Source: Rhodoglobus sp.
GTDB taxonomy: Bacteria > Actinomycetota > Actinomycetes > Actinomycetales > Microbacteriaceae
Direction of reading: 5' to 3'
Length of the DNA: 64,000 bases
Assembly (NCBI GenBank): GCA_025464445.1
Contig: JAODLY010000009.1
Location: forward strand, 1-64,000
Part shown: positions 49,239 to 64,000 of the stretch, one piece after another
Position numbering within the stretch: position 1 is the first letter of the stretch
Layout: every line of letters begins with the position of its first letter
Program-made: the position numbers and the translations under genes
Notes under the pieces: generated by a model
The model's database searches: none
What the model saw: only the letters and a program-made list of their open reading frames with translations
What the model was told of the DNA's origin: nothing

Positions 49239-50549
49239 CTACTGGGCGTCGAATGCTTTCTGCACGAGTTCAAGCGCAGCCTGTGGAGTGAGCTGGGCCT
49301 GGATCACGCCGTAGATGCTGTCGTACATGGCGCTCGCGACCGCCGTCGAGACGATGAGGTCCGGCTGCGTCTCCGGGCTCGTCACACCGGGGGCTGTCGC
49401 CGTGTCCAGTGCGGCCTTGAGAGCACCCTGCTTCGTGGCGTCGACCTGCGGCGCGTAGGTCGTAACCGGCGGCTGCCCGTTGTCCACGAGCAGCTGCTGG
49501 GCCTCGTCGCTGTAGTAGAAGGCGATGAACTTCTTCACCGCCGCGAGCTTCGCGGCGTTGTCGCCGACCTTCGCCGCCACCGCGAACGGTGCGGACGCAA
49601 CGTTCATGACGATCTTCTGGTCGCCGACCCCGTCGGAGAACTGCGGGCCCGCCCAGAAGCCGGCGTCGATACCCGCGTCCTGGATCGCACTGGAAGCCCA
49701 CACTCCGGCGTCGAGCATCGCTGCATTGCCGCCGGTGAACTGGTCAACAGCTTGCTGGTAGGTCTGCGTAGACACGTTCGAAGCAAAAGCTCCGGCATCG
49801 CGCAGTTCCGCGATGTGCTGGTAGAGGCGCAGGAAGTCTGCGTTGTTGTACTTCTCGGTGCCGGCGAGAATGCCCTGGATCTTGTCCTGGTAGCCAAAGC
49901 GGTCGAGGTCGACGAGGAAGCTCCACACACTGAACGACGACTGGTTGGCCCCGTTCGAGATTGTCGTGATGCCCTTGGCGCTGAGCGTCTTCGCGACGTT
50001 GATGAGGTCGTCGAAGGTGACGGGAACGTCAAGGCCGTTGTCGGCGAGGACCTTCTTGTTGTACCAGAGGCCGGTCAGCAGGCCCTGGTACGGGACGCCG
50101 AAAATTACCTTGTCGGTCGAGAAGTTCGACACGGTGCTCGCCGGGAACTTATCGGTGAGACCCAGTTCGTCGAGAACCGGGGCGAGGTCGAGCAGCTTGC
50201 CGGCCTTCTGCATGTCGACGGCTGTCGACTTGTAGACCCAGAAGATGTCCGGCAGCGTGTCGCTCTGTGCCGCGATCGACAGCTTCTGCAGGTGCTCGGC
50301 GACGGCTTCGCCACTCACCGTGACCGTGATATCGGGGTTTGCCTTCTCGAATGCCTGGACGATCGCCCAGGTCGCCGGGTCGGCGGTCTTGACGTCGGGG
50401 TTCTGCATCGAGAGCGTGATCTCGGTGGGACCGCTCGCCGTGCCGGAACCGGCAGTCGCGCATCCCGCGAGAGCGACGATTGTCGAGGCTGTCACCAATC
50501 CGACCGCGATTCGGCGGGCGAGACTGGATTTAGAGCTGGAGTGCTGCAC
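49239..50549 (-). CDS. Sugar ABC transporter substrate-binding lipoprotein (fructan locus)
   Basis: This 436-residue protein begins at the GTG at 50549, spaced 6 bases from AAAGGAG; an ATG two codons earlier abuts the ribosome site and is less likely. The lipoprotein signal runs ARRIAVGLVTASTIVALAGC. The mature part is a family-1 binding protein (ITLSMQNPDVKTADPATW, IFGVPYQGLLTGLWYNKK, AAMLDAGVWASSAIQ). Two LacI-type operators precede it, and the LacI gene and GH operon lie just upstream, so the ligand is most likely a fructose-containing oligosaccharide. Confidence 0.92.
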   Translation of the reverse strand: MQHSSSKSSLARRIAVGLVTASTIVALAGCATAGSGTASGPTEITLSMQNPDVKTADPATWAIVQAFEKANPDITVTVSGEAVAEHLQKLSIAAQSDTLPDIFWVYKSTAVDMQKAGKLLDLAPVLDELGLTDKFPASTVSNFSTDKVIFGVPYQGLLTGLWYNKKVLADNGLDVPVTFDDLINVAKTLSAKGITTISNGANQSSFSVWSFLVDLDRFGYQDKIQGILAGTEKYNNADFLRLYQHIAELRDAGAFASNVSTQTYQQAVDQFTGGNAAMLDAGVWASSAIQDAGIDAGFWAGPQFSDGVGDQKIVMNVASAPFAVAAKVGDNAAKLAAVKKFIAFYYSDEAQQLLVDNGQPPVTTYAPQVDATKQGALKAALDTATAPGVTSPETQPDLIVSTAVASAMYDSIYGVIQAQLTPQAALELVQKAFDAQ

Positions 50550-50583
50550 TGTCATCTCCTTTGATGAGAAATTGGGGCTGTGT

Positions 50584-50607
50584 CGAAACGTTTGTATAAA
50601 AACGTTT
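50584..50607. promoter_or_regulatory. Paired AAACGTTT operators for the LacI regulator
   Basis: CGAAACGTTTG (50584-50594) and AAACGTTT (50600-50607) lie between the binding-protein and LacI genes, 14 bases apart. The first is the reverse complement of CAAACGTTTCG at 51799-51809, ahead of the GH172 gene. Such central CG palindromes are typical of LacI-family sites. Confidence 0.75.
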
Positions 50608-50648
50608 GTCTGACGGTAAGCCGTAGGCGGGACCATGTCAAGTCGCCG

Positions 50649-51668
50649 CTATTCGCGCGCTTCGCGAGGCCGGAATCCCTCTGTCGAGTCCCGCAGTTCG
50701 AGTTGCTGCTGCAGGCGGACGATGCGCGGCCTGGAGTCGGGAGAGGCCAGGCGCTCGACAAGCAGGCGGACAGCGGCGACACCCATGTCGAATGCCGGCT
50801 GCCGCACTGTCGTGAGTCGGGGCTCGAAGAGGTCAGAGTGGTTGAAGCCATCGAACGTCGCGAAAGCGATGTCGGCGGGGATGCCCCGGCCGGAGGCCCT
50901 GAGCTCCTCCAGGGCGAGTGCTGCCAGAGGGGTGCTCGCTGCCACCACCGCCGTCGCGCTGCCCCGCAGCCCGCGCAGCGCCGCCCGGATTGCGCTTTCG
51001 TCTGTGCCCGTCAATACCAGCTGGTCGGAAGGCGCGAGACCGGCGGACGCTATGGCATCGGTAAAGCCCTCGAGGCGCTCACGGAGCGTTGGCACCCGCA
51101 CGTCCCCGGCGACAAGCACGAAATTGCGGTGTCCCGCCGCCAGAAGGTGCGATATCAGGCGCCGCATCGAGTCGCGGTTATCGGCGCCCACCTGGTCGAA
51201 CGGCAGGTCGGAGAACACGCGGTCCAGGAGCACGATCGGCGTCTTCTCCTCCCGCAACGACACCATCAGTGCCGGATCGGACTCGGCAGCACAGGCGAGG
51301 ATGAGTCCGTCGACGCGGCGATCCAGCAGGGTGTGCACCGCACGTCGCTCCCGGTCGGGGTTCTCCGCGGAGTTCGCCAGCACCAGGGTCAGGCCACGCT
51401 CGACGGCGGCGTCCTCCACCCCGTGGACCATGTCGGCGAACGCTGGTTCGCCGGCGTCAGACACGACGAGGCCGATGCTCTCCGTTCGCGATCGTCGCAT
51501 GGCTCTGGCCAGCGCGTCCTGGCGGTAGCCGGTCTTCTCGATCGCGTCCACCACCCGGCTGCGCGTTTCGGGTTCGACATTGCGGGTGCCGTTGAGCACA
51601 TGGGACACGGTCGAGATGGACACCTGGGCCAGTCGAGCAACTTCTACCATCGTGGCCATGCTGAACAC
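50649..51668 (-). CDS. LacI-family transcriptional regulator
   Basis: This 339-residue repressor has the N-terminal helix-turn-helix and hinge VEVARLAQVSISTVSHVLNG, NVEPETRSRVVDAIEKTGY and ALARAMR. The periplasmic-binding-protein-like domain includes IGLVVSDAGEPAFADMVHG, VDGLILACAA and the C-terminal ATFDGFNHSDLFEPRLTTVR. A start at M4 or M7 is also possible. It lies between the importer operon and the divergent GH operon, whose promoters share its presumed AAACGTTT site. Confidence 0.92.
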   Translation of the reverse strand: MFSMATMVEVARLAQVSISTVSHVLNGTRNVEPETRSRVVDAIEKTGYRQDALARAMRRSRTESIGLVVSDAGEPAFADMVHGVEDAAVERGLTLVLANSAENPDRERRAVHTLLDRRVDGLILACAAESDPALMVSLREEKTPIVLLDRVFSDLPFDQVGADNRDSMRRLISHLLAAGHRNFVLVAGDVRVPTLRERLEGFTDAIASAGLAPSDQLVLTGTDESAIRAALRGLRGSATAVVAASTPLAALALEELRASGRGIPADIAFATFDGFNHSDLFEPRLTTVRQPAFDMGVAAVRLLVERLASPDSRPRIVRLQQQLELRDSTEGFRPREARE

Positions 51669-51798
51669 CTCCGCACATATCGGCCATTTGGACTAGGGCT
51701 TTGCGCAAAGATAGCGCATCCAGCAGATGTCAGCTCTCGCCTGCCGCAGCGGCGCTATTTGCGTCCACCGGGCCTTCCCGAATAACATCGCTCGTGCG

Positions 51799-51809
51799 CA
51801 AACGTTTCG
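51799..51809. promoter_or_regulatory. CAAACGTTTCG operator ahead of the GH172 operon
   Basis: This exact inverse of the site upstream of the importer gene lies 54 bases before the GH172 start. It links the catabolic operon to the same LacI regulator. A second small palindrome CTTTGCGCAAAG lies near 51703. Confidence 0.7.
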
Positions 51810-51862
51810 ATGCGCTCAGGACCCTCGCCCAGCTCCAGCCGGGCCGGGGCTAGGTAAGGACA

Positions 51863-53227
51863 ATGGTGACCGAATCAAATCCCGCCGGCATGCTCGGCGA
51901 TCTCACACGCGCTCGGACCGCCCGCACAGCCCGGGCTTCCAGCTTCGACCAGACGGGGCGCAACCGCGACAACTGGCTCATCATGCCGGGTGAGCAACGG
52001 GTTCTCGCCGATATCCAGGGCCCCGGCTCGATCACCCATATCTGGATGACCCAGTCGTGCCGCATCAACCCGGGACCGGGCCAGATCGACCCCGCGGTGG
52101 TCGGGGTGCCGATGCTGGAGATCCACAACGCCCTTGGCGTGAGTTGGGAGGTTGTCGACCCCGACTACTACCGCAAGGTGCTGCTCAAGATCTATTGGGA
52201 CGACCAGGAGACCCCGAGCGTGATCGCACCGCTGGGCGACTTCTTCGGCCTCATGAACTCGCTCTCGGGGTCGTACGATTCGCTCCCACTTTCGGTCTCG
52301 GCGAAAGAATCCGAGCTGCACACGTTCGGCGGCAGCGCCGCGTTCAACAGCTACTTCCGCATGCCGTTCGGAACTCGTGCGCGCGTAGTGGTCGAGAACC
52401 AGAACGACATCCCCTACCTGCAGTACTTCTACATCGACTACGAACTCTCCCCGGAGCCGTTGCCGGATGACACCGTCTATTTCCACGCGCACTGGAAGCG
52501 GGCACTGCCCAATGTGGGGTGGGCGCCCGACCTGCAGGCGAACAGCATCGAGACCACCATCCCGAACCTGACGGGCGATGACAATTACGTGGCGCTCGAG
52601 ACCGAGGGCAGAGGCCACTATGTCGGCTGCACGCTCGCCGTGCGACACTTCCAGGGTTCCTGGTGGGGTGAGGGCGACGACATGATCTTCATCGACGATG
52701 ACACCTGGCCACCGAGCCTTCACGGCACGGGCATGGAGGACTACTTCGGGCATGCCTGGGGCATGCAGCACAACGCCTACCAGTTCAACGGCACGATGGT
52801 CCATGAGGAAGACGTCCCCGGCTTCCACCACAGCTACCGCTTCCACATGGCAGACCCGATCCGTTTTGAGAAGCGCATCAAGGTGACCTTCGAGCACGGC
52901 CACGGCAACCATCTCTCGGACGACTGGTCGTCGACCGCCTACTGGTACCAGACCCTGCCGTCCCCCGTCCTCACCGTTCCGGGTGTCGAGGAACGGCTTC
53001 CGCTGCGACCTGTCGACCGGGTAATCCAGGCTCCGCTGCCCGACCTCACCGACGAGCAGCGTGCGGCGCGCGCGGCCGCGGCGGCGAGGATGGTCGGTTT
53101 CGTGGCTGCCCGCGATGCCCTTCGCGCGGACCGCCGCGTGGAGGTCGACACCTGGGAGGCCGCCAACGCTGCCCAGGCCCGCGACATCCGCTCCCGTTTC
53201 GATGCCAAAACCACAAGGGAGGCGTGA
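51863..53227 (+). CDS. Glycoside hydrolase family 172 (DUF2961), fructofuranose-acting
   Basis: This 454-residue protein has the GH172 fold (formerly DUF2961). Two jelly-roll domains are suggested by GPGSITHIWMTQ and the long beta-rich body. The two carboxylates correspond to E270 in WWGEGDDMIFIDD and E292 in GTGMEDYFGHAWG, in positions matching the characterised difructose dianhydride I synthase/hydrolase of Bifidobacterium. Such enzymes form or cleave alpha-linked difructofuranose anhydrides. ATG 51863 or GTG 51866 may be the start. It begins the GH172-GH32-PfkB operon. Confidence 0.88.
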   Translation: MVTESNPAGMLGDLTRARTARTARASSFDQTGRNRDNWLIMPGEQRVLADIQGPGSITHIWMTQSCRINPGPGQIDPAVVGVPMLEIHNALGVSWEVVDPDYYRKVLLKIYWDDQETPSVIAPLGDFFGLMNSLSGSYDSLPLSVSAKESELHTFGGSAAFNSYFRMPFGTRARVVVENQNDIPYLQYFYIDYELSPEPLPDDTVYFHAHWKRALPNVGWAPDLQANSIETTIPNLTGDDNYVALETEGRGHYVGCTLAVRHFQGSWWGEGDDMIFIDDDTWPPSLHGTGMEDYFGHAWGMQHNAYQFNGTMVHEEDVPGFHHSYRFHMADPIRFEKRIKVTFEHGHGNHLSDDWSSTAYWYQTLPSPVLTVPGVEERLPLRPVDRVIQAPLPDLTDEQRAARAAAAARMVGFVAARDALRADRRVEVDTWEAANAAQARDIRSRFDAKTTREA

Positions 53228-53229
53228 CA

Positions 53230-54465
53230 ATGCGCCCCGAGTTCCATTTCACCGCCGAGAGCGGCTGGATCAACGACCCACACGGCATCACCTGGCGTGA
53301 GGGTCGGTACCACCTCTTCTACCAGTACGTCCCGGGCAGCCAGGTGTGGGCCCCGAACTGTCACTGGGGGCACGCCACCTCAACCGACATGTTCGCCTTC
53401 GAGCAACTGCCGGTCGCGCTGGCCCCCGGCGACGGTGACGATGGCATCTGGACCGGCTCGCTCGTGACCGACGAGGCCGGTGCGAGCACGATCTTCTACA
53501 CCTCCGTCGTTCAGCCGGGAATCGGCATCGGTCGGGTGCGCACCGCGACGCCTGTCGACGACGGCTGGGTCGAGTGGCGCAAAGGCCCGGTTGTCGCCGG
53601 CGCCCCGGCTGGCCTCGACATCGTCGCCTATCGCGATCCCTTCGTCTTCCGCGACGGGGAAGCCTGGCGGATGTTCCTGGGTGCCGGTCTCGCCGACGGC
53701 ACCGCGACGGCGCTCTCCTATTCCTCCGACGACCTCGCGGAGTGGGAGTACGAGGGCATCGCCGCGCAACGCTCGACGCTCGAGACTGAACCCGTGTGGA
53801 CCGGTGCCCTGTGGGAGTGCCCCCAGTTGTTCGAGCTCGACGGGCGCCACGTCATCGTCAGCTCGGTGTGGGACGACGACGTGCTGCACTACGTCGCCTA
53901 CGGCATCGGCAGCTACCGTGACGGCAAGTTCAGCGCCGAGACCTGGGGGCGGCTGAGCTACGGGAACAGCTACTACGCGCCGTCATTCTTCCGTGACGCC
54001 GAGGGACGCCCGAGCCTGACTTTCTGGCTGCGCCATGTCGAGGACGCCGAGGCCGGCTGGGCGAGCGCGCACAGCGTGCCGCACACCCTCACCCTCGAGG
54101 GGGACACCCTCGTCGCGACCCCCCACGACGGGCTGCTCTCCTACCGGGGCACCCCTTCGAACACGGGCGAGGTCGAAGGGCTTGCCGCCGATGCCGTCTG
54201 GTCCCGCGGGTCGCGGCTCGAGATCCGATCCGGGGATGCCGCGGTCGCCACCCTCACGCTGGGCGAGGCCACCCTTACCCTCGCCGTCGGGACCGAGTCC
54301 TGGGAGATGCCCCACGACGGCTCCACCGTGCGGGTCATCCTGGATGGGCCGGCTTTGGAAGTCTCGACCCGTGCGGGAGTCATGGCGGCGCCGATCGCTC
54401 CCGCGGGTCGGTCGCTCGCCCTGTCGGGTGACGGCGAACTGCTGGTCTACAGCCTCACGAGGTGA
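53230..54465 (+). CDS. Glycoside hydrolase family 32 (fructan hydrolase/levanase-like)
   Basis: The ATG at 53230 has GGGAGG 7 bases upstream and gives 411 residues; the GTG at 53224 is too close to it. GH32 active-site motifs are W13-INDPHG (nucleophile D16), RDP at 135-137 (transition-state Asp) and EC at 196-197 (acid/base E196). The canonical NDPNG reads NDPHG here. The five-bladed propeller is followed by a C-terminal beta-sandwich (about 300-411). There is no signal peptide, so it acts inside the cell on imported fructosides such as inulo- or levan-oligosaccharides or sucrose-type substrates. Confidence 0.93.
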   Translation: MRPEFHFTAESGWINDPHGITWREGRYHLFYQYVPGSQVWAPNCHWGHATSTDMFAFEQLPVALAPGDGDDGIWTGSLVTDEAGASTIFYTSVVQPGIGIGRVRTATPVDDGWVEWRKGPVVAGAPAGLDIVAYRDPFVFRDGEAWRMFLGAGLADGTATALSYSSDDLAEWEYEGIAAQRSTLETEPVWTGALWECPQLFELDGRHVIVSSVWDDDVLHYVAYGIGSYRDGKFSAETWGRLSYGNSYYAPSFFRDAEGRPSLTFWLRHVEDAEAGWASAHSVPHTLTLEGDTLVATPHDGLLSYRGTPSNTGEVEGLAADAVWSRGSRLEIRSGDAAVATLTLGEATLTLAVGTESWEMPHDGSTVRVILDGPALEVSTRAGVMAAPIAPAGRSLALSGDGELLVYSLTR

Positions 54466-55385
54466 CCGGGCACGTGCTTGTCGTCGGCGAAGCGCTCGTC
54501 GACGTCGTGCGCCGCGGTGGGGTATCCGAGGCCCACCCCGGTGGAAGCCCGTTGAACGTGGCCGTCGGCGTGCAGCGGCTCGGCCTCGATGCGACCCTGC
54601 ACTCGCGGTTCGGCCGGGATCGTCACGGGTTGGCGGTTGCCGCGCACCTGGCCGCGAGCGGCGTGGCCGTGACGCCCGGCACGATCACGCGAGAAGCGAC
54701 CTCGGTCGCGGTCGCCACCATCGGATCGGACGGTGCAGCGCAATACGACTTCGCCATCAGCTGGGACCCTGCGCCCCTGGATGTCGCGGCATTCCCTTCG
54801 CGCGCCCTGCATGTTGGCTCGATCGGATCGTGGCTCGAGCCGGGTGCCTCCCTTGTCGAGGATCTCGTGCGAGCGACCCGGCCCCACGCGACGATCACGT
54901 TCGACCCGAACGTGCGCCCTGCGCTCATGCCCACGCACGCTGAAGCGGTCTCTCGGGTGGAGCGCTTCGTCCGGCTCGCCGACGTGGTCAAGGCGAGCGA
55001 CGAGGACCTCGAATGGCTGTATCCGGGAACGGATCCGGCTGTCGTGCTCGATCGGTGGCTCGGTTTCGGCCCGGCGCTGGTGATCGCGACCGGGGGTGCA
55101 GCGGGTGCGGACTCCGTGACCAGGAACGGACATCTCCACACCCCGGCCCCGAAGATCACGGTCGCGGACACCATCGGCGCCGGCGACTCATTCATGGCCG
55201 GACTCATTGCGGGCCTCGACGACGAGGGGCTGCTCGGCAAGCAGCGACGCGACGAGCTGCGTGACATCCCTGCCTCATCGCAGAGGTACGTCGTCGAGTT
55301 GGCCGCCCGCTGCGCCGCCGTCACAACCACCCGCATCGGCGCCAACCCGCCCACGCGGTCGGACATCCTGGCCTTCTGGAGGTAG
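54462..55385 (+). CDS. PfkB-family carbohydrate kinase, probable fructokinase
   Basis: This 307-residue ribokinase-family protein has GGSPLNVAVGVQRLGLDATL as the sugar-binding region and the anion hole/catalytic motif DTIGAGDSFMAGLIAG. The GTG at 54462 overlaps the GH32 stop (GTGA). As the last gene of the GH172-GH32 operon it most likely phosphorylates fructose released in the cytoplasm. The specificity is inferred; related adenosine- or 2-keto-sugar kinases have the same motifs. Confidence 0.9.
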   Translation: MTGHVLVVGEALVDVVRRGGVSEAHPGGSPLNVAVGVQRLGLDATLHSRFGRDRHGLAVAAHLAASGVAVTPGTITREATSVAVATIGSDGAAQYDFAISWDPAPLDVAAFPSRALHVGSIGSWLEPGASLVEDLVRATRPHATITFDPNVRPALMPTHAEAVSRVERFVRLADVVKASDEDLEWLYPGTDPAVVLDRWLGFGPALVIATGGAAGADSVTRNGHLHTPAPKITVADTIGAGDSFMAGLIAGLDDEGLLGKQRRDELRDIPASSQRYVVELAARCAAVTTTRIGANPPTRSDILAFWR

Positions 55386-55638: not shown

Positions 55639-56340
55639 GTGTCTAAGCTCTGGAACGATCCACATGAGGCGCTTGTCGGGCTTCTCGCCGACGGGATGAC
55701 ACTCGCCGTGGGCGGTTTCGGCCTCAGTGGGATCCCCGCAGACCTGATCGACGCAGTGCGCGACAGCAACGTCAAGGACCTCACCGTCGTTTCGAACAAC
55801 ATGGGTGTCGATGGCAAGGGCCTCGGGGTTCTGCTCGAAAACGGGCAGGTACGTAAGGTGATCTCCTCGTACGTGGGCGAGAACAAGGGGTTCGCCGCTG
55901 CCTACCTCGCGGGCACTCTCCAGGTCGAGTTCACCCCCCAGGGCACACTGGCAGAGCGCCTGCGCGCCGGCGGCGCGGGCATCCCCGGTTTCTACACCAA
56001 GACGGGCGTCGGCACCCCGGTCGCGGAAGGCAAGCCCACGATGGTGTTCGACGGGGTGGAGTACCTGCTCGAGCGGGGCATCGTCGTCGATGTGGCACTC
56101 GTTCACGCCTACCGCGGCGACCTGGAAGGCAACCTCCTCTACCGGCACACGGCGCGCAACTTCAATCCGCTCGTCGCGACTGCCGGCCGCATCACGGTCG
56201 CCGAGGTCGAGCAGCTGGTGGACGGCTACCTCGACCCCGACAATGTTGTGACACCAGGCATTTTCGTGCAGCGGATCGTCACCACGACGCGCGCGAAAGA
56301 CATAGAGCAGCGGACCACGCGTCCACGGACGGGGAACTAG
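55639..56340 (+). CDS. scoA: 3-oxoacid CoA-transferase subunit A
   Basis: This 233-residue protein starts at the GTG at 55639, with AAGGAG at the right distance; the frame is open upstream to 55207 but that part overlaps the kinase and intergenic DNA. The coenzyme-A motif [13 protein letters not shown] lies in the first 40 residues, and [15 protein letters not shown] and [22 protein letters not shown] complete the fold. With ScoB it moves CoA from succinyl-CoA to an oxo acid. The 253 bases before it hold no recognisable gene. Confidence 0.93.
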
Positions 56341-56342
56341 TT

Positions 56343-56972
56343 ATGCCTTGGACCAGGGAAGAGATGGCGGCCATTGCCGCGCGAGGCCTGAAGGATGGCG
56401 CTTATGTGAACCTCGGTATCGGCATCCCTACGCTCGTGGCCAACTACATCCCAGACGGTACGAGGGTGACTCTCCAGAGCGAGAATGGCATGCTCGGCAT
56501 CGGACCGTTCCCATTCGAAGGGGAAGAGGACGCCGACCTCATCAACGCCGGCAAGCAGACAGTCACGGCCATTCCCGGTGCCAGCTATTTTGATTCGGCC
56601 ACGTCGTTCGGGATGATCCGGGGCGGGCACATCGATGCGGCCGTGCTGGGTGCCCTGCAGGTGTCCGCTCGCGGTGACCTCGCCAACTGGATGGTGCCGG
56701 GAGCCATGGTCAAGGGAATGGGTGGAGCCATGGACCTGGTCGCCGGCGCTTCGTTGGTGATCGTGATCACCGACCACGTGGCGAAAGACGGCAGCCCCAA
56801 GATCGTCGAGGAATGCACCCTGCCTCTGACCGGCAGGCGCTGCGTCGACGAGATCATCACCGACCTTGCGGTGTTCGACGTGACAGACGCCGGGCTGGCC
56901 CTGCGTGAGCTCGCGCCAGCGGTGACCGTCGAAGAACTTCGCCAGAAGACAGGTGCCCGCTTCACCTATTGA
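56343..56972 (+). CDS. scoB: 3-oxoacid CoA-transferase subunit B
   Basis: This 209-residue partner starts 2 bases after scoA. Motifs are [14 protein letters not shown] and the catalytic glutamate E47 in [30 protein letters not shown] and [14 protein letters not shown] follow. The glutamate forms the glutamyl-CoA intermediate. The pair is convergent with the thiolase of the acyl-CoA operon and may feed or drain the same pathway at the 3-ketoacyl level. Confidence 0.94.
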
Positions 56973-57028: not shown

Positions 57029-58255
57029 CTAGTCGCGATCCGCGTTCTCGAAGATCGCCGCGAGCCCCTGGCCGCCGCCGATGCACATCGTCTCGAGCAG
57101 GTAGCGGCCGCCGATGCGGCTCAGGTGGCGCGACGCTGTCGCGAGAATGCGGGCACCTGTCGCCCCCACGGGATGCCCGAGCGAGATGCCCGAGCCGTTC
57201 ACGTTCAGGCGCGACCAGTCGTCGTCGCCCAGGTTCCACTGGCGGGTGACCGCGAGCACTTGCGCGGCGAAGGCCTCGTTGAGCTCGATGAGGTCCATGT
57301 CCGCGAGGCTGAGCCCCGTGCGCTCGAGGACTCTCGCCGTCGCGGGAACCGGGCCAATCCCCATGCGTGCCGGCTCGACGCCGGCGCGCGCCCAGCCTAC
57401 GAGTCTCACAACTGCATTGAGACCGAGTTCTTCGGCGCGCTCCCTCGTCGTCACGATGCAGGCCGCGGCCCCGTCATTCTGGCCGCTGGCATTGCCAGCC
57501 GTGACGGTTGCGGCGGCATCCTTCGCGATGAGAATGGGCGTGAGGCGGGCGAGCGCCTGGGCAGTCGTGTCGGGGCGCAGCGTCTCATCGGCGTCCACGA
57601 CGGTCAGCGAACGGCCGTTTGCCACTTCGACCGGCACGATCTCGTTCGTGAAGTGGCCGGCAACGACCGCCGCGGCGGCACGCTGCTGTGATCGCACGGC
57701 CAGGGCATCCTGGTCCTCCCTGCTGATCGAGAACTCGCGGCGCAGGTTCTCCGCGGTCTCCAGCATGCCGTCGGGCACCGGGTAGTTCCTGCCGCCGGCC
57801 GTCTCGCGGCCGCGCCCCAGCGCGTCGTGCAGGTGGAGTCCGGTGGCGCCACCGATGCCCCATCGAGCGGCGACCGTGTAGAAGGGCGCCTGGCTCATCG
57901 AGTCGACTCCCCCGGCGATCACGAGGTCGCTTACCCCGGTCTGCACCTGCATCGCCGCGTCGAGTATCGCCTGCAGTCCCGACCCGCAGCGCCGATCAAG
58001 CTGCATGCCGCCGACGGTGATCGGCAGGCCAGCGTTGAGCGCAGCAACCCTTGCGATCGGCGCAGCTTCCGCGGTCGGGTAGGCCTGCCCGAGAACCACC
58101 TCGTCGACGAGAGAGCCGTCGAGGCCAGTGCGCGCTATCAGCGCGGCGATCACCGTGGCCGCGAGTTCGGCCGGCGATACGCTCTTCAGCGCGCCGCCGA
58201 AGCGCCCAATCGGGGTGCGCAGTGGTTCGCAGATGACGATTTCGGGGAGGGACAT
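57029..58255 (-). CDS. Acetyl-CoA acyltransferase (thiolase)
   Basis: This 408-residue thiolase has the acylated C90 in RRCGSGLQAILDA, H361 in NGSGISLGHPVGATG and C391 in MCIGGGQG, with LIELNEAFAAQVLAV before them. It cleaves 3-ketoacyl-CoA or condenses acetyl-CoA. It is the last gene of the minus-strand ligase-BioY-hydratase-ACD-SDR-thiolase operon, 9 bases after the SDR stop. Chain-length preference cannot be told from motifs. Confidence 0.95.
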   Translation of the reverse strand: MSLPEIVICEPLRTPIGRFGGALKSVSPAELAATVIAALIARTGLDGSLVDEVVLGQAYPTAEAAPIARVAALNAGLPITVGGMQLDRRCGSGLQAILDAAMQVQTGVSDLVIAGGVDSMSQAPFYTVAARWGIGGATGLHLHDALGRGRETAGGRNYPVPDGMLETAENLRREFSISREDQDALAVRSQQRAAAAVVAGHFTNEIVPVEVANGRSLTVVDADETLRPDTTAQALARLTPILIAKDAAATVTAGNASGQNDGAAACIVTTRERAEELGLNAVVRLVGWARAGVEPARMGIGPVPATARVLERTGLSLADMDLIELNEAFAAQVLAVTRQWNLGDDDWSRLNVNGSGISLGHPVGATGARILATASRHLSRIGGRYLLETMCIGGGQGLAAIFENADRD

Positions 58256-58264
58256 TGCAGCCTT

Positions 58265-59053
58265 TCAGCTCGGGATGAGTCCGGCGAAGCCCGCGGTGAG
58301 CCCGCCGTCGACGAAGATCGTCTGGCCGGTGACGTAGCCAGCCGCATCCGAAAGGAGGAACAGCACGACGCCGGCAACATCCTGCGGTCGTCCCGTGCGG
58401 CCGAGCGGCAGGACGCGTTTGCGCTCTTCCTGGACGCGCTCGGAGTCGATGGAGGCGCCGGGCGGGCGGATGCCCGTCTCACTGATCAGGCCAGGGGCGA
58501 CGGCATTTACCCGGATACCCGACCCTCCCCACTCGGCGGCGAGCTGCTGCGTCAGCGCCACAGCGCCCGCCTTGGAGACGCTGTACGACCCCAGGCCGGG
58601 AAACGGGAACCGGGCGGCCATCGACGCCACATTGACTATCGCGCCGCCGGATGCCGCAAGATGCGGATACGCTGCGCGCGAGCAGTAGAGCATCGCCATG
58701 AGGTTGACGCGCATCGCGAGATCCCAGTCGGCCAGCGCAACATCGAGCAGCGCCCCCGGCCGGTAGAGGCCGGCGTTGTTGACCAGGCCGTCAAGCGGAC
58801 CCAGGGCATCAACGGCTGTGGAGATGATGCCGGCGACGGAGGCCTCATCCGAGACATCCCCGGCCGCGGCGACCGCGCTACCGCCGGCCTGGCGAATGCT
58901 GTCGACGGTTGCCGCCGCGCGTTGCGGGTCGAGGTCGTTCACCGCGACCGCGGCCCCAGCGGCCGCGACGGTCTGCGCGATCGCCGCGCCGATGCCCGAT
59001 CCGGCTCCGGTCACCAGAATCCGCCGCCCGTCGAGCGAAAACTGGCCGCTCAT
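58265..59053 (-). CDS. SDR-family dehydrogenase, probable 3-hydroxyacyl-CoA dehydrogenase role
   Basis: This 262-residue SDR has [21 protein letters not shown] with D-L-D in NDLDPQ (NAD preference), NNAGLYRP, and catalytic Ser/Tyr/Lys in [20 protein letters not shown]. Its ATG overlaps the ACD stop by 4 bases; the long frame to 60181 is a shadow of that gene. Between an enoyl-CoA hydratase and a thiolase it would supply the hydroxyacyl-CoA dehydrogenation step. Confidence 0.9.
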
Positions 59054-61017
59054 CGCGTCACCTCCAGTTTCGAGTCGAGCGCGTAGAGCAGGCCGTCCCT
59101 GCCCATCGCGATGGGGTTGAGGTCGAGGCTGCCCAGCTCGGGATGAGTCGTGGCGAGAGCCGCGACATCCTGCACGAGTTCGACCACGACGCGCAGGTCG
59201 CCCGCCGCCACGAACGGGCTGACCAGTGCGACGATCTCGTCGTACCCGAGGGGCGCGCTGGCGAACACCACGCTGTCCCCGACATCGCTGCCGCCCATTC
59301 CGAAGGAGAGGAGCACGCCGTGCTCGGCCGAACGTACGAATCCGAGAATGAATTCCGCGTCGTGCTCGACCTCCCGGTGCAGGCTGATCGGGGCATCCCC
59401 GAATCGCGCACGCAGGAACGCGACCGCGGCGCTCAGCACAGTGAGATCGGGCACGGATCGGATGAGGCCACCGGCCTTCAGGCGATGCGCGAGCTGCTCG
59501 ACCTTGACCACCATCGGGAAGCCCACCCGGTCCGCTGCCGATTCCAGGCCCGCCGGCAGGTCGTCGATCTCCGCGGACTCTGGCCAGGCCACTCGCAGGC
59601 CAGCCAGGAGCTCCCTGGACGAAGTACCCGTCACGAGTTCGACCCGGCCCTGTGTCACCGGCGAGCGATCGACCTGCGACACCGTAGAACCGGAAGGGTC
59701 GAGCAGGGCCGCGAGCGCGCCGGCCTTCACTATGCCCTCCCTGGCCGAAGTGGCGTAGACGACACCGTCCCAGCGCGTCTCGGGCGGGAGCGGGGCGCCG
59801 ACAATGGCGCAGAGCACCACCGCAGCACCCGCTGACTGGGCAGCATCGACGACGAGACGCGCAACGGCGGTGTGCGCGGGCAGCCGCGGGCCGGGGAGTC
59901 CCACTCCTGCCACGTGGACGAGCACGGGATGCCGCGCTGCGTAGTCGCGGACGATCGCGGCGAATTCCTCGGGCCGGTTCATCACGCCGGCACCCACATC
60001 CACCGGATTGTCGGGGCCCTCGAGCACAACCCCGGCACGCTCGGCGGCATCGGCCATCGCGACCGCGCCCCCGCCCGAACTGCTCAGGACGGCGATCCCG
60101 CCCGCGCGCGGTGCCGACCCGCGCAGGCCGGGAGTGGCGAGCGCTTCGAGCACCCACACCGCCTCCTCCAGGTCGCGGCACACGATAATGCCCGCCTGCC
60201 GCGCGACACCGGCGACGATCCGCGCGGAGGTCGCCAGCATCCCGGTGTGCGATTGCGCGGCGCGCGAACCCGCCTCCGACTGCCCGCCCTGGACGAGCAC
60301 AAGCTGCTTGCCGAGCGCCCTGGCTCTGGCACCCGCGTCGCGAAGGTCGCGGACATCCCGCATCGATTCCGCGTACAGCAGCACCGTGTCGACCCCGCTC
60401 TCCTCGAGCTGCAGCACGGCCAGTTCGAAGAAGTCGAGGGACGCTGCATTGCCGTAGGAGAACGCGCTGGCCACCCCGAGACCGCGGCCGGCAAGTGCGC
60501 CGAGCACACCCGAGAGCATCCCGCCGGACTGCATAACCAGGCCGATCGGGCCGTCCGCGATGGGAGGCAGTGGACCGGCGTAGCCGAAGAAACCATCCTG
60601 TGGAGCGAGGACTCCCATGCAGTTCGGGCCGAGCAGCGGAACGTCGCTGCTCGCAGCCCAGTCCGCGAGCTCCACTTCCTGCTCAGGGGTGAATCCGCTC
60701 GTGATGACGACGACTCCGTCGATCCTGCCCGTCGCCGACCGCAGGATGCCCAGGCAGTCGCCAGCCGGAACCAGCAGGTACACCACCCCCGGCTCGGCCA
60801 CGAGGTCGAGCGACGGCACACAGGATATCCCGGCCACCGAGGCACGGGTGCGGCTGACGAGGTTGATCGTCCCGCCGAACGGGTGCGATGCATCGAGCAG
60901 GTTGTCGAGCAGCGAGCTGGCGAAGAACGAGCCAGGCGAGGCGCCCACGATCGTGACCGCCGCGGGATCGAGCAAGGCGGCCGCAGTTGCCCGCCCGGGT
61001 GCGCTTGCCTCTCTCAT
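59050..61017 (-). CDS. ADP-forming acyl-CoA synthetase-like fusion protein (ACD/CoA-binding plus ATP-grasp)
   Basis: This 655-residue protein has an N-terminal CoA-binding Rossmann domain ([14 protein letters not shown]). A succinyl-CoA-ligase-like domain follows with the phosphohistidine H257 in SHTGML, and a reduced C-terminal ATP-grasp domain (~470-655) with [18 protein letters not shown]. In typical ADP-forming synthetases the latter reads HKSD/HKTD-GG, so the HRLKAGG variant and the short length suggest altered catalysis. It overlaps the hydratase by 4 bases. It may make acyl-CoA or regenerate ATP from acyl-CoA. Confidence 0.85.
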
Positions 61018-61814
61018 TGGCGACGGAAGTCGAACAGCTGGTAGCCGACCGCCGGGTCGAGGGTTGCGTTCATGTCGGCTACAACCCTGCGGTTGAGGAT
61101 GCGCTTGGTGAACGCGAGGACGTCCGCCGAGCGCGCGAGCAGCTTCTCGACAAGGTCGTCGACTGCCGCATCGAGTTCGGCGAGCGGCACCGCTGCGTTG
61201 ATCATGCCTGCCGCTGCGAGCTGGGCCCCGGTGTACTCCTCCGAGAGGAAGAAGTACTCCTTCGCCTTCGGCGGCGACATGAACTGCGGCACGAACGATA
61301 GGGCGCCATCGCCGGGCACGAGGCTGTACGGCGGGCCAACGGGCTCGCCGCCCGAACTTGGGATGGTCGTGCCGAGCGCCAGGTGCATGTCGCAGATCTT
61401 GGCGTCCTCACGGGCGATGACGAGGTCGGAGTTGAACATGAGGCTCTGGCCGAAGCCCATAGCGTCGCCGTTCACCTTCGAGATGAGCGGCTTCTCCATC
61501 TCCGCTGCCGCCTGGTGAGCACGGATGATCCCGGTGAACCTTCCCCATTCGCCCCGGGGATCCCCGAGCCGCTTCGACTGGTCTCCGTTGGCGTACTGGC
61601 TCGTCGGCGGGGGCACCAGGAACTCGCCGTCCTCTTCGCCGGTGAGGATGACGATGCGCACCGAGTCGTCGATCCTCAGTTCAGAGAGGGCGAGTCCCAT
61701 CTCCTCGTGGATCTCGGCGTAGGGCTTCAGGTTCATCGACTCCCGCAGCGGGCGCATCTTCACCGTTGCCACCTGGCCGGATCGCTCGACGACCAGCGCG
61801 CGGAATTCAGTCAT
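61014..61814 (-). CDS. Enoyl-CoA hydratase/isomerase family protein
   Basis: This is a 266-residue crotonase-fold protein. The oxyanion-hole region is seen in KVNGDAMGFGQSLMFNSDLV, with LALGTTIPSSGGEP downstream. An unusual proline-rich insert (LVPPPTSQYANGDQSK) sits where crotonases have a short loop, and the usual first catalytic Glu position is not obvious, so an isomerase or an atypical hydratase is possible. It overlaps bioY and the ACD gene by 4 bases each, indicating coupled translation. Confidence 0.86.
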   Translation of the reverse strand: MTEFRALVVERSGQVATVKMRPLRESMNLKPYAEIHEEMGLALSELRIDDSVRIVILTGEEDGEFLVPPPTSQYANGDQSKRLGDPRGEWGRFTGIIRAHQAAAEMEKPLISKVNGDAMGFGQSLMFNSDLVIAREDAKICDMHLALGTTIPSSGGEPVGPPYSLVPGDGALSFVPQFMSPPKAKEYFFLSEEYTGAQLAAAGMINAAVPLAELDAAVDDLVEKLLARSADVLAFTKRILNRRVVADMNATLDPAVGYQLFDFRRQ

Positions 61815-62410
61815 TTGCGACCCCGCGATGCGATTGCGTCAGCCACCCGCCACGCCGAACGGATGACGGCGGCGGCGACGACGGCTTTGATGATCCCGCC
61901 GACGATGAAGGGGTAGAGACCGGCGGCGACCGTTTGCCGGAGATCGAGCCCCAGGCTCACGGCGAGCCAGGGCAGGCCGACCGCGAACACGATGAGGGAT
62001 CCCGCGATGAACGACACGATGGCGCCGACGATCCGCCGGTCCCACTGCCGCTGGGCCAGCCAGCCGGTGAGCCCCGCGGCGAAGATGAAGCCGACGATGT
62101 ATCCGCCGGTCGGCCCAGCAAGCACGCCCATGCCGGAGGATGCGTCGCTGAACCACGGCACACCCACCACGCCGAGGGCGGCGTAGAGCACCATGGACAG
62201 GACGCCACGGGTCGCCCCGAGGGTCGTACCGACGAGAAGCACGGCGAGGGTCTGCCCGGTGATGGGAACGGGCCACAGTGGCACCGCCACCTGGGCGAGG
62301 AGTCCGGTGAAGAGCGCACCCCCCGCCACGAGGGCGATGTCGGTCGGAACCGAGCGGGGGATCACGCGGTCCGCGAAGGTCTGGCGTGCGGTGGCTGGGA
62401 CGGTTGTCAT
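61811..62410 (-). CDS. bioY: BioY-family biotin transporter (ECF S component)
   Basis: This 199-residue membrane protein has about six TM helices. It carries the BioY motifs VPLWPVPITGQTLAVLLVG, GVPWFSDASSGMGVLAGPTGGY and FIVGGIIKAVVAAAVIRSA. BioY binds and imports biotin, alone or with the ECF energising module BioM/BioN, which is not present in the window. Its start and stop overlap the acyl-CoA ligase and enoyl-CoA hydratase by 4 bases each, so it is a true member of the catabolic operon. No biotin-dependent carboxylase gene lies here. Confidence 0.93.
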   Translation of the reverse strand: MTTVPATARQTFADRVIPRSVPTDIALVAGGALFTGLLAQVAVPLWPVPITGQTLAVLLVGTTLGATRGVLSMVLYAALGVVGVPWFSDASSGMGVLAGPTGGYIVGFIFAAGLTGWLAQRQWDRRIVGAIVSFIAGSLIVFAVGLPWLAVSLGLDLRQTVAAGLYPFIVGGIIKAVVAAAVIRSAWRVADAIASRGRK

Positions 62411-63981
62411 GCTTGCTCCTTTGTCGTGTCGATGCTCCGCCTGCGGAGTTCCTGCTTGTCGATCTTGCCGTTGGAGGTTTTCGGCAGCGGTTCCGCGGTG
62501 ACGTAGATGATGGCCGGCACCTTATGGTGGGCGAGGCGTTCGCGGCAGTAGGCGATGAGGGCATCCCGGCGATCGTCGACCCAGTCCGTGGTGAGGAACG
62601 CCGTGACGACCTCGCCCCAGTGGTCGTCGGGGGTGCCGACGACGCCCGCTTCGAGTACGCCCTCGAACTCGAACAGCACGGACTCGATCTCGATGGGGTA
62701 GATGTTCTCGCCGCCGCGGATCATCATGTCTTTCTTGCGACCGGCCAGGTAGATGAAGCCCTCGGCGTCCCTGCGCCCCATGTCGCCACTGCGGTACCAG
62801 CCGTCCACGACGGTGGCCGACGTCTCCTCTGGCATGTCGAGATATCCGGTCATGAGCACGTCGCCCCTGGTCACGATCTCCCCGACGTCACCGTCGGCAA
62901 CCTCGTCCAGGTTCTCGTCACAGATCTTGACCACGGTGTTGTAGCTCGCCTTGCCGATGGACCCGAGCAGGTGCTCCTCACCTGCCACGCCGCGACGGTG
63001 TGCCGCATAATCCAGAACCGTCTGGCTGCCGACCTCCGTTGCCCCGAACAGCTGGAGGAAGTCGCATCCGAAGGTGTCCATGGCGCGCCGCAGCAGGGCC
63101 GGCGGCATGGGTGCGGCGCCGTAGCCGATCGCCACGACGCGGCTGAAGTCCCGCTTCTCGAGCCCGGGGAGCTGCAGGAGCGTCGAGATCATCGTGGGCA
63201 CCAGGAAGCAGTGAGTGAGGCCACCGTCGCTCAGCCATTCCACCAGCTCTTCCGCGACGAACGAGCGCAGGGCGAGAATGCGGTACCCCATCGACAGGCT
63301 GGTGAGCAGGTGCGAGAAACCCGACACGTGATACAGCGGCGACCCGTTGTAGTGGAAGGTCTCACCGTTGAATTGCCGGTCGATGATGGTCTCCAGCGCG
63401 TTGCTCTTGAGCATCCGGTGGCTCTGGAGCACGCCCTTCGGGCGCCCCGTGGTGCCGCTCGTGAAGGAGAGGCGCAGGACGTCGTCATCCGCGACCTCAG
63501 GTGCGACGAAGTCGAGTGAGCCGGACGCGATGAGTTGTTCCATCGTGAAGTCGGCGGGCCCGGAGCCGGGCTCGAGGGCGATCACGGCTTCGAGGGAGGC
63601 GATCGCGTCCTTGAGACCGGGGTGGCGCTCGAGGCTGCGCGCGTCCGCGAAGAAGAAGCGGGCATCGGCTGCGGACAGGAACATCTCGACTTCGCGCGCC
63701 ACCAGCCGCGGGTTGAGGGGCACGATAGTCGCGCCGATGGTCATCGTCGCGATGAGCATCTCGATGAAGTAGGCGCTGTCGATGGACATCACCCCGAGCC
63801 GGTCTCCTTGGCCCACGCCGATAGAGAGCAGGCCAGAGCACAACCGGCGCACCCTGTCGTTCACCTCGGCGAACGTCGACCTGGTGTTCGTGCCCCCGTC
63901 CACGATGAAGACGCTGTTCGGGCGCTCCCGCGCATGGATGGGCAGCCAATCCCCGATCCTGATGCCCTGTGGCGAGCTCAT
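62407..63981 (-). CDS. AMP-forming acyl-CoA synthetase/ligase
   Basis: This 524-residue ANL ligase begins at the ATG at 63981 (AAGGAG 8 bases upstream). Signatures are RLSFTSGTTGRPKGVL (P-loop), FGATEVGSQTVLDY, WYRSGDMGRRDAEGFIYLAG and GGENIYPIEIESVL. The C-terminal lysine is in LPKTSNGKIDKQEL. It activates a carboxylic acid to the CoA ester. As the first visible gene of the operon with BioY it would activate the acid that BioY imports. The gene is complete; DNA beyond 63981 is only 19 bases. Confidence 0.93.
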   Translation of the reverse strand: MSSPQGIRIGDWLPIHARERPNSVFIVDGGTNTRSTFAEVNDRVRRLCSGLLSIGVGQGDRLGVMSIDSAYFIEMLIATMTIGATIVPLNPRLVAREVEMFLSAADARFFFADARSLERHPGLKDAIASLEAVIALEPGSGPADFTMEQLIASGSLDFVAPEVADDDVLRLSFTSGTTGRPKGVLQSHRMLKSNALETIIDRQFNGETFHYNGSPLYHVSGFSHLLTSLSMGYRILALRSFVAEELVEWLSDGGLTHCFLVPTMISTLLQLPGLEKRDFSRVVAIGYGAAPMPPALLRRAMDTFGCDFLQLFGATEVGSQTVLDYAAHRRGVAGEEHLLGSIGKASYNTVVKICDENLDEVADGDVGEIVTRGDVLMTGYLDMPEETSATVVDGWYRSGDMGRRDAEGFIYLAGRKKDMMIRGGENIYPIEIESVLFEFEGVLEAGVVGTPDDHWGEVVTAFLTTDWVDDRRDALIAYCRERLAHHKVPAIIYVTAEPLPKTSNGKIDKQELRRRSIDTTKEQA

Positions 63982-64000
63982 GAGCGACACTCCTTCGTGG

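Follow-up and report, generated by a model that had tools for sequence, protein, structure and literature searches.

The closest described relatives of the locus presented here are aerobic catabolic clusters with a three-subunit biotin carboxylase on the one hand, and solitary biotin transporters on the other. The phosphophenylethanone carboxylase HpeCBA of Rhodococcus rhodochrous GD02 (homolog XccBCA) carboxylates phosphorylated aromatic methyl ketones to beta-keto acids (PMC9618137), and BioY proteins without neighbouring bioMN are reported to act alone as high-capacity biotin transporters, in an account that cites earlier work (PMC3398298). We analysed the first 64,000 bases (the window) of a 95,872-base contig of Rhodoglobus sp. 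(JAODLY010000009.1), whose 2.84-Mb genome is 99.6% complete, and followed the contig past the window edge in the same numbering (Table 1). In the window a solitary BioY gene, like those transporters without bioMN beside it, differs from them by lying inside a catabolic operon, and past the edge the same island contains, as in the Hpe cluster, a complete three-subunit biotin-dependent carboxylase (carrier, biotin carboxylase and carboxyltransferase, 71710-75023). The leading explanation, which we consider probable, is that BioY imports biotin as the cofactor for the carboxylase of its own catabolic island.

The BioY operon is real, and its genes, strands and junctions are those described in an earlier account made from the letters of the window alone (the sequence-only reading). 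The acyl-CoA ligase, BioY, the crotonase-family protein, the ADP-forming acyl-CoA-synthetase-like protein and the SDR oxidoreductase are chained through four consecutive 4-base overlaps, both junctions of BioY (with the ligase and with the crotonase) being ATGA, and the thiolase gene follows that of the SDR after a gap of 9 bases, which gives a minus-strand operon of six genes, convergent with the plus-strand genes of the 3-oxoacid CoA-transferase (ScoAB). The best solved relative of the ligase is FadD5, followed by fatty-acyl/feruloyl-CoA synthetase. The protein next to BioY, which had been called an enoyl-CoA hydratase, does belong to the crotonase family, but the hydratase label is unsafe because this weak member stays under the cut-off of every NCBIfam model shown (top score 83.9 bits, cut-off 354); its closest solved chain is a naphthoate synthase (E 3.5e-12).

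The sequence-only reading had seen no biotin-requiring carboxylase, and had suggested that an acyl-CoA dehydrogenase may lie beyond 64 kb. Two acyl-CoA dehydrogenase genes are indeed there, and so is such a carboxylase, with about 9.3 kb between the starts of BioY and its carrier gene; both had been missed because the window edge cut the island. The supply of biotin to a carboxylase, which that reading had offered as an alternative, is now favoured.

The BioY protein scores 144.2 bits against PF02632 (cut-off 25), which places it in the BioY family, and it matches the solved BioY 4dve (E 1.9e-11); biotin is its presumed cargo. The genome has a second BioY (contig C51), to which the window's copy is 60% identical. 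The window's copy retains the Lys near the C-terminus, and a nearby Asp is replaced by Gly. This replacement was considered as a mark of a new cargo and rejected, since the same state is found in the second BioY and in 27 of the 28 BioYs of the order that are most similar to the window's (L154-L181). The absence of bioMN beside BioY, noted before, is borne out, and the two CbiQ/EcfT-family genes of the genome both lie on other contigs. No bioB match in the genome reaches the 225-bit cut-off (the two matches score 37 and 19.5 bits), which suggests that the organism is probably a biotin auxotroph. Four biotin carboxylase genes are present, one of them within a 1141-residue frame on contig C5 whose carboxyltransferase retains the motif KDMAG. 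This frame is probably a pyruvate carboxylase, which would make the island carboxylase an extra biotin enzyme.

BioY recurs near this type of carboxylase. The carboxyltransferase is rare, being found in 2 of 396 genomes of the order (single sequence, E up to 1e-60) and 13 of 394 genomes of the class (profile, 1e-100), with the window's own included in both counts, and in 19 of 72,556 plasmid records; all 19 records were inspected, one of them at a second place too. We inspected up to 14 kb around the gene where the sequence extends, about 971 kb in total; one locus scan gave at least 69 loci (a sample), from which the short partial matches L074-L090 were unused. Within the window's clade, two of the 24 loci (the window itself and Rhodococcus pyridinivorans) have a BioY gene near the carboxyltransferase. 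The figures are 4 of 8 for a Cnuibacter/Arthrobacter/G828 group, 0 of 5 for the Hpe-type loci and 1 of 41 for loci of the pyruvate-carboxylase/oxaloacetate-decarboxylase (PC/OAD) type, the long-branched L043 being omitted from this last count. Nine further plasmid records gave 0/8 catabolic and 0/1 PC/OAD-type loci with BioY. Pooled, the catabolic loci with BioY number 6 of 45, or 5 of 44 when the window is set aside, and the PC/OAD loci 1 of 42; these are not counts of independent events, as they include near-copies (G964 and G933, two Caballeronia plasmids, three bisphenol plasmids), and the flanks end at contig ends in many loci, where the absence of BioY is not proven. Outside the counts stand G034 and G080, which have KDMAA, are PC/OAD-like by motif and carry their single BioY elsewhere.

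As a background, nine of the 12 carboxyltransferase-bearing genomes carry a single BioY and the other three lack the gene, or one BioY per 4.3 Mb. About 0.2 BioY would then be expected in 971 kb, against five found (Poisson tail 3e-6), a comparison that is an estimate only, because not every locus is an independent case and a plasmid differs from a chromosome. The five are found in Cnuibacter, with the order carboxyltransferase-BCCP-biotin carboxylase-BioY-ScoA-ScoB-thiolase, on an Arthrobacter plasmid, where the catabolic locus carries EcfA-EcfT-BioY, and in Arthrobacter sp. B6, G828 and R. pyridinivorans. Four of them are 29-38% identical to the window's BioY, and all five fall in different parts of the BioY tree, which fits repeated recruitment near the carboxylase.

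Viewed from the transporter, most BioYs are not near a carboxylase. BioY matches occur in 34 distinct plasmid records, of which 11 were inspected, eight for BioY and three for the carboxylase. Within flanks of 6-12 kb, biotin-carboxylase genes are near in three of the eight BioY regions (Pacificitalea, Thermomicrobium and Azospirillum) and bioB in one (Paracoccus), and 13 regions come from the order (L182-L193 and L195), with genomes that have two BioYs providing six; carboxylase subunits are near in two of the 13, both in G285. Azospirillum thermophilum has the order carboxylase beta-alpha-BioY-methylmalonyl-CoA mutase, so that BioY goes, as in the window, with the biotin carboxylase of a catabolic route; that enzyme is an AccD-type acyl-CoA carboxylase, whereas the one of the island is of the HMGL type.

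Some of these regions have gene contents of their own. In G285 (L184 7173-10027) the second BioY gene overlaps that of a MaoC dehydratase by 4 bases, with an AccD-type carboxyltransferase and an acyl-CoA dehydrogenase alongside. The run in G828 (L138 3672-13834) comprises an apparent fused ScoAB, acetaldehyde dehydrogenase, a DmpG-like aldolase, BCCP, biotin carboxylase, carboxyltransferase, thiolase-like and OB-fold proteins, asparaginase and BioY, three of them identified by Pfam and the rest by similarity. On a plasmid of Caballeronia NK8 (L092 15968-23944) the carboxylase genes are followed, within about 5 kb, by a carbonic anhydrase gene and one annotated as a biotin-synthesis transaminase instead of BioY, an arrangement in which the supply of bicarbonate and of cofactor seems to travel with the carboxylase.

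Several observations weigh against cofactor supply. BioY and the carboxylase, which we presume to be co-regulated, belong to different transcription units, and other operons occupy the 9-11 kb that separate the two; no BioQ-like box above chance was found, and in a search for shared control the divergent gap contained no inverted repeat serving as a shared operator, nor was a sigma-70-like promoter found. The contrast between 5/44 catabolic and 1/42 PC/OAD loci is not significant alone (Fisher p 0.20), and because of this we slightly lowered our confidence in an explanation that we still hold probable. In the sequence covered, BioY was not found in 22/24 loci of the window's clade, 5/5 Hpe-type loci, 4/8 of the Cnuibacter group and 8/8 of the later plasmid loci; the R. 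opacus locus is among those 22 and shares the gene set of R. pyridinivorans, 64-96% identical. The BioY of G380 is the sister of the window's, closest in the tree (97/87 support), and about 30 kb to each side of it yielded no carboxylase gene; it lies upstream of, and in line with, an hpa-like run of HpcH/HpaI, FAA-hydrolase, aldehyde dehydrogenase and dioxygenase-type genes (L182 2427-9915). In addition, the check for biotin synthesis covered bioB only.

Some of the same observations would suit a general biotin importer that sits in a catabolic operon and raises uptake for pyruvate carboxylase or acyl-CoA carboxylases elsewhere: the different transcription units, the three other biotin carboxylases in the genome, and the G380 sister at its hpa-like run without a carboxylase near. 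We consider this unlikely, given that BioYs of different lineages recur near this carboxylase type and in other carboxylase operons. That the cargo of this BioY relative is instead another small acid, namely the substrate of the pathway, is a thought prompted by its being locked in an operon with an acyl-CoA ligase and by the place of the G380 sister, first in its run, where no other transporter was recognised among the frames read. The identity to the second BioY of the genome, the conserved Lys, the wide occurrence of Gly for Asp and the island's own Liv-type transporter genes make such a cargo distinctly improbable.

The sequence-only reading had proposed that biotin itself may be catabolised, being taken up, converted to biotinyl-CoA and then shortened through beta-oxidation. 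With the contig read past 64 kb all generic beta-oxidation activities are indeed present, but they are just that, generic, and the carboxylase, the beta-keto-acid cleavage enzyme (BKACE), the MmgE/PrpD proteins and the Liv genes would have no evident part in the route. No gene for opening the bicyclic ring was recognised in the frames read, a profile search for one not having been made, and nothing on bacterial biotin-breakdown genes was found in the literature searched. The organism is apparently unable to make biotin, and the biotin-using carboxylase of the island gives BioY another role; BioY recurs near such enzymes, and the island has Liv-type uptake genes of its own. A carboxylase in the BioY operon was named by that reading as a point against its proposal; the enzyme found comes close to this, lying in the same island though in a different transcription unit. 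Biotin as the catabolised substrate is therefore very improbable, while the pathway taken in its entirety may well break down a cyclic acid or another substrate. A check suggested earlier, whether the crotonase stands beside BioY in other genomes too, gave no such case: relatives of the crotonase at E 1e-40 occur in one of 396 genomes of the phylum sample, the window's own, and no plasmid matches at 1e-25. This counts against biotin catabolism as well, and would agree with BioY having entered the operon by chance insertion without any functional tie; with 4-base overlaps on both sides and recurrence near related clusters, chance is the least credible of these explanations.

What the carboxylase acts on is suggested by its relatives. 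The lysine of KDMAG is a carboxylated metal ligand in pyruvate carboxylase. Of 85 carboxyltransferases compared, 28 have replaced it by Ala, Glu, Gly or Tyr and the remainder keep Lys; the window's protein has Ala, and Lys is kept in every PC/OAD row of the same alignment. The 28-row group was first defined by motif and then tested on a quick tree of 84 rows, which omits the genome's C5 copy (less than 430 residues of sequence) and is supported by the SH-like approximate likelihood ratio test (SH-aLRT) only, in which the lysine-less rows, the window's included, form one side of a branch (SH-aLRT 100), sister to the Hpe-type rows (SH-aLRT 91) and away from the PC/OAD rows. By both marks of PC/OAD membership, motif lysine and tree placement, the window's carboxyltransferase falls outside that group. 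The lysine-less proteins stand in catabolic clusters, and the Tyr-type rows also carry Asn for the second His of the HxH motif.

The Hpe-type loci, named by their neighbouring genes (HpeB itself is outside the tree), keep the lysine and carry genes for a phosphoenolpyruvate (PEP)-dependent kinase (HpeHI) and an HAD phosphatase (HpeD). In contrast, the window's contig has no relatives at E 1e-3 of the HpeH-, HpeI- and HAD-like proteins (L094/L093) or of the PEP-utilising proteins (L018), and BioY is an addition. Production of HpeCBA in E. coli did not succeed (PMC9618137).

Two plasmid relatives, in R. pyridinivorans P23 and R. opacus G13, belong to the same lysine-less clade, with a carboxyltransferase about 50% identical to the window's beside P450cin (872 and 858 bits to the solved enzyme). 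Their clusters share ScoAB, thiolase, an acyl-CoA dehydrogenase pair and ligase kinds with the island, and in P23 also BioY; they differ by P450cin, its flavodoxin and an LLM-type flavin enzyme, and a search of the window's contig for relatives of these three gave none at E 1e-3. These Rhodococcus plasmid stretches (L017 4570-17446 and L091 7723-21443) combine P450cin and flavodoxin-, reductase- and LLM-type genes with a three-subunit biotin carboxylase. They look like gene sets for 1,8-cineole, and they offer a candidate for what follows the methyl-ketone lactone. Rhodococcus sp. C1 turns cineole into a 3'-oxobutyl (methyl ketone) lactone (PMC4097962). Because HpeCBA acts on methyl ketones and the pathway of the P450cin-linked relatives reaches one, our best guess is that the island carboxylase most likely acts on a ketone, giving a beta-keto acid.

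The BKACE gene starts 12 bases 3' of the carboxyltransferase gene. BKACE (Kce) uses acetyl-CoA to cleave a beta-keto acid, which yields acetoacetate and an acyl-CoA. In a count of 190 loci, BKACE was beside the carboxylase only in the window's genome; the view that the pairing is unique to this genome was withdrawn, since plasmids of three bisphenol strains (Sphingobium yanoikuyae YC-JY1 and A3, and Sphingomonas bisphenolicum AO1) have it too, with other carboxylases of the superfamily. Their near-identical regions hold in a row genes for a thioesterase, BKACE, a Tm-1-like protein, carrier, biotin carboxylase, carboxyltransferase and an HAD protein, with pobA in two of the three in the stretch shown. 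Bisphenol A is degraded through 4-hydroxyacetophenone to 4-hydroxybenzoate, and the gene row would fit carboxylation, cleavage and thioester hydrolysis. The likeness to the island would lie in carboxylating and then cleaving; unlike the island, these plasmids keep the lysine (KDPGG), have the Tm-1-like and HAD proteins, and show no BioY. As the window's BKACE is only 30% identical to theirs, the two pairings may have arisen separately.

For the island we propose that BioY would supply biotin to the carrier of the carboxylase, which would turn a ketone intermediate into a beta-keto acid; the adjacent BKACE would split this with acetyl-CoA into an acyl-CoA and acetoacetate, ScoAB and the thiolase would convert the acetoacetate to acetyl-CoA, and the remainder would go through beta-oxidation by way of the ligases, dehydrogenases, hydratase and hydroxyacyl-CoA dehydrogenase. 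An induced pathway with a biotin enzyme may carry its own importer because the organism probably cannot make biotin. BioY transport, catabolic biotin carboxylases and beta-oxidation islands are known kinds; the lysine-less clade with its BKACE partner is more novel. More tentatively, and with doubt prevailing, the island may encode a member of an uncharacterised plasmid-borne and chromosomal clade of ketone carboxylases with a lysine-less carboxyltransferase. Here the enzyme would be joined to BKACE, so that methyl or cyclic ketones are first carboxylated and then cleaved, and would come with a biotin importer that lets it work in auxotrophs, the same clade supplying the step after the 1,8-cineole methyl-ketone lactone. 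The recurrence of the pairing on three plasmids made us slightly less doubtful of this proposal.

If cofactor supply is correct, catabolic islands can bring their own cofactor supply, with the biotin importer staying with the carboxylase, and be usable by hosts without biotin synthesis. If the clade proposal also holds, it would point to a clade of enzymes that carboxylate ketones, the reaction beyond the methyl-ketone intermediate of cineole breakdown among them, and to a carboxylase-BKACE route. For annotation, an out-of-place BioY would be a hint to look for a nearby biotin enzyme; no publication linking such a BioY to a catabolic carboxylase was found in the open-access literature searched.

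Table 1. Features of the catabolic island on the Rhodoglobus sp. contig (contig C35 of genome G000; the window ends at 64,000) and the gene rows of the bisphenol-strain plasmids
Feature	Position	Strand	Evidence or remark
3-oxoacid CoA-transferase subunits A and B (ScoAB)	~55639-56972	+	TIGR02429, TIGR02428, both above cut-off; subunit A start from frame
Thiolase	57029-58255	-	NF004853 635.7 bits, cut-off 551
SDR oxidoreductase	58265-59053	-	NF005559 233.6 bits, cut-off 215; ATG start chosen inside longer open frame
ADP-forming acyl-CoA-synthetase-like protein	59050-61017	-	PF13607, PF13549, PF13380
Divergent crotonase-family protein	61014-61814	-	PF00378 71.6 bits
BioY, solitary biotin-transporter-family protein	61811-62410	-	PF02632; 199 residues
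AMP-forming acyl-CoA ligase	62407-63981	-	PF00501/PF13193; first operon gene; start uncertain, open frame extends upstream
MmgE/PrpD protein, first	~64229-65575	+	
Hydratase-type crotonase	65572-66333	+	
3-Hydroxyacyl-CoA dehydrogenase	66330-67166	+	
SDR beyond the window	67167-67967	-	
MmgE/PrpD protein, second	67964-69304	-	
Acyl-CoA dehydrogenases	69468-70619 and 70616-71713	+	
Biotin carrier	71710-72201	+	EVMKM biotinylation motif
Biotin carboxylase	72206-73576	+	
Carboxyltransferase	73566-75023	+	
BKACE	75035-75859	+	PF05853 306 bits; 2y7d E 6e-60, residues 6-273
Crotonase after BKACE	75863-76636	+	
Liv-type binding protein	~76859-78037	+	
Two ABC ATPases and two Liv-type permeases	84779-88158	+	
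Gene rows of bisphenol-strain plasmids	L206 3552-10321; L207 9552-16336; L208 9567-16336		

The first MmgE/PrpD protein matches solved cis-aconitate decarboxylases and IDS-epimerase weakly. Farther along the contig are genes for a MaoC protein, another acyl-CoA dehydrogenase and an ETF pair, together with a second ScoAB pair recognised by reading and similarity. On the other side, the part of the window upstream of the island (49239-55385) holds a sugar set composed of a solute-binding protein, a LacI regulator, a DUF2961 protein, a GH32 glycosidase and a PfkB kinase.

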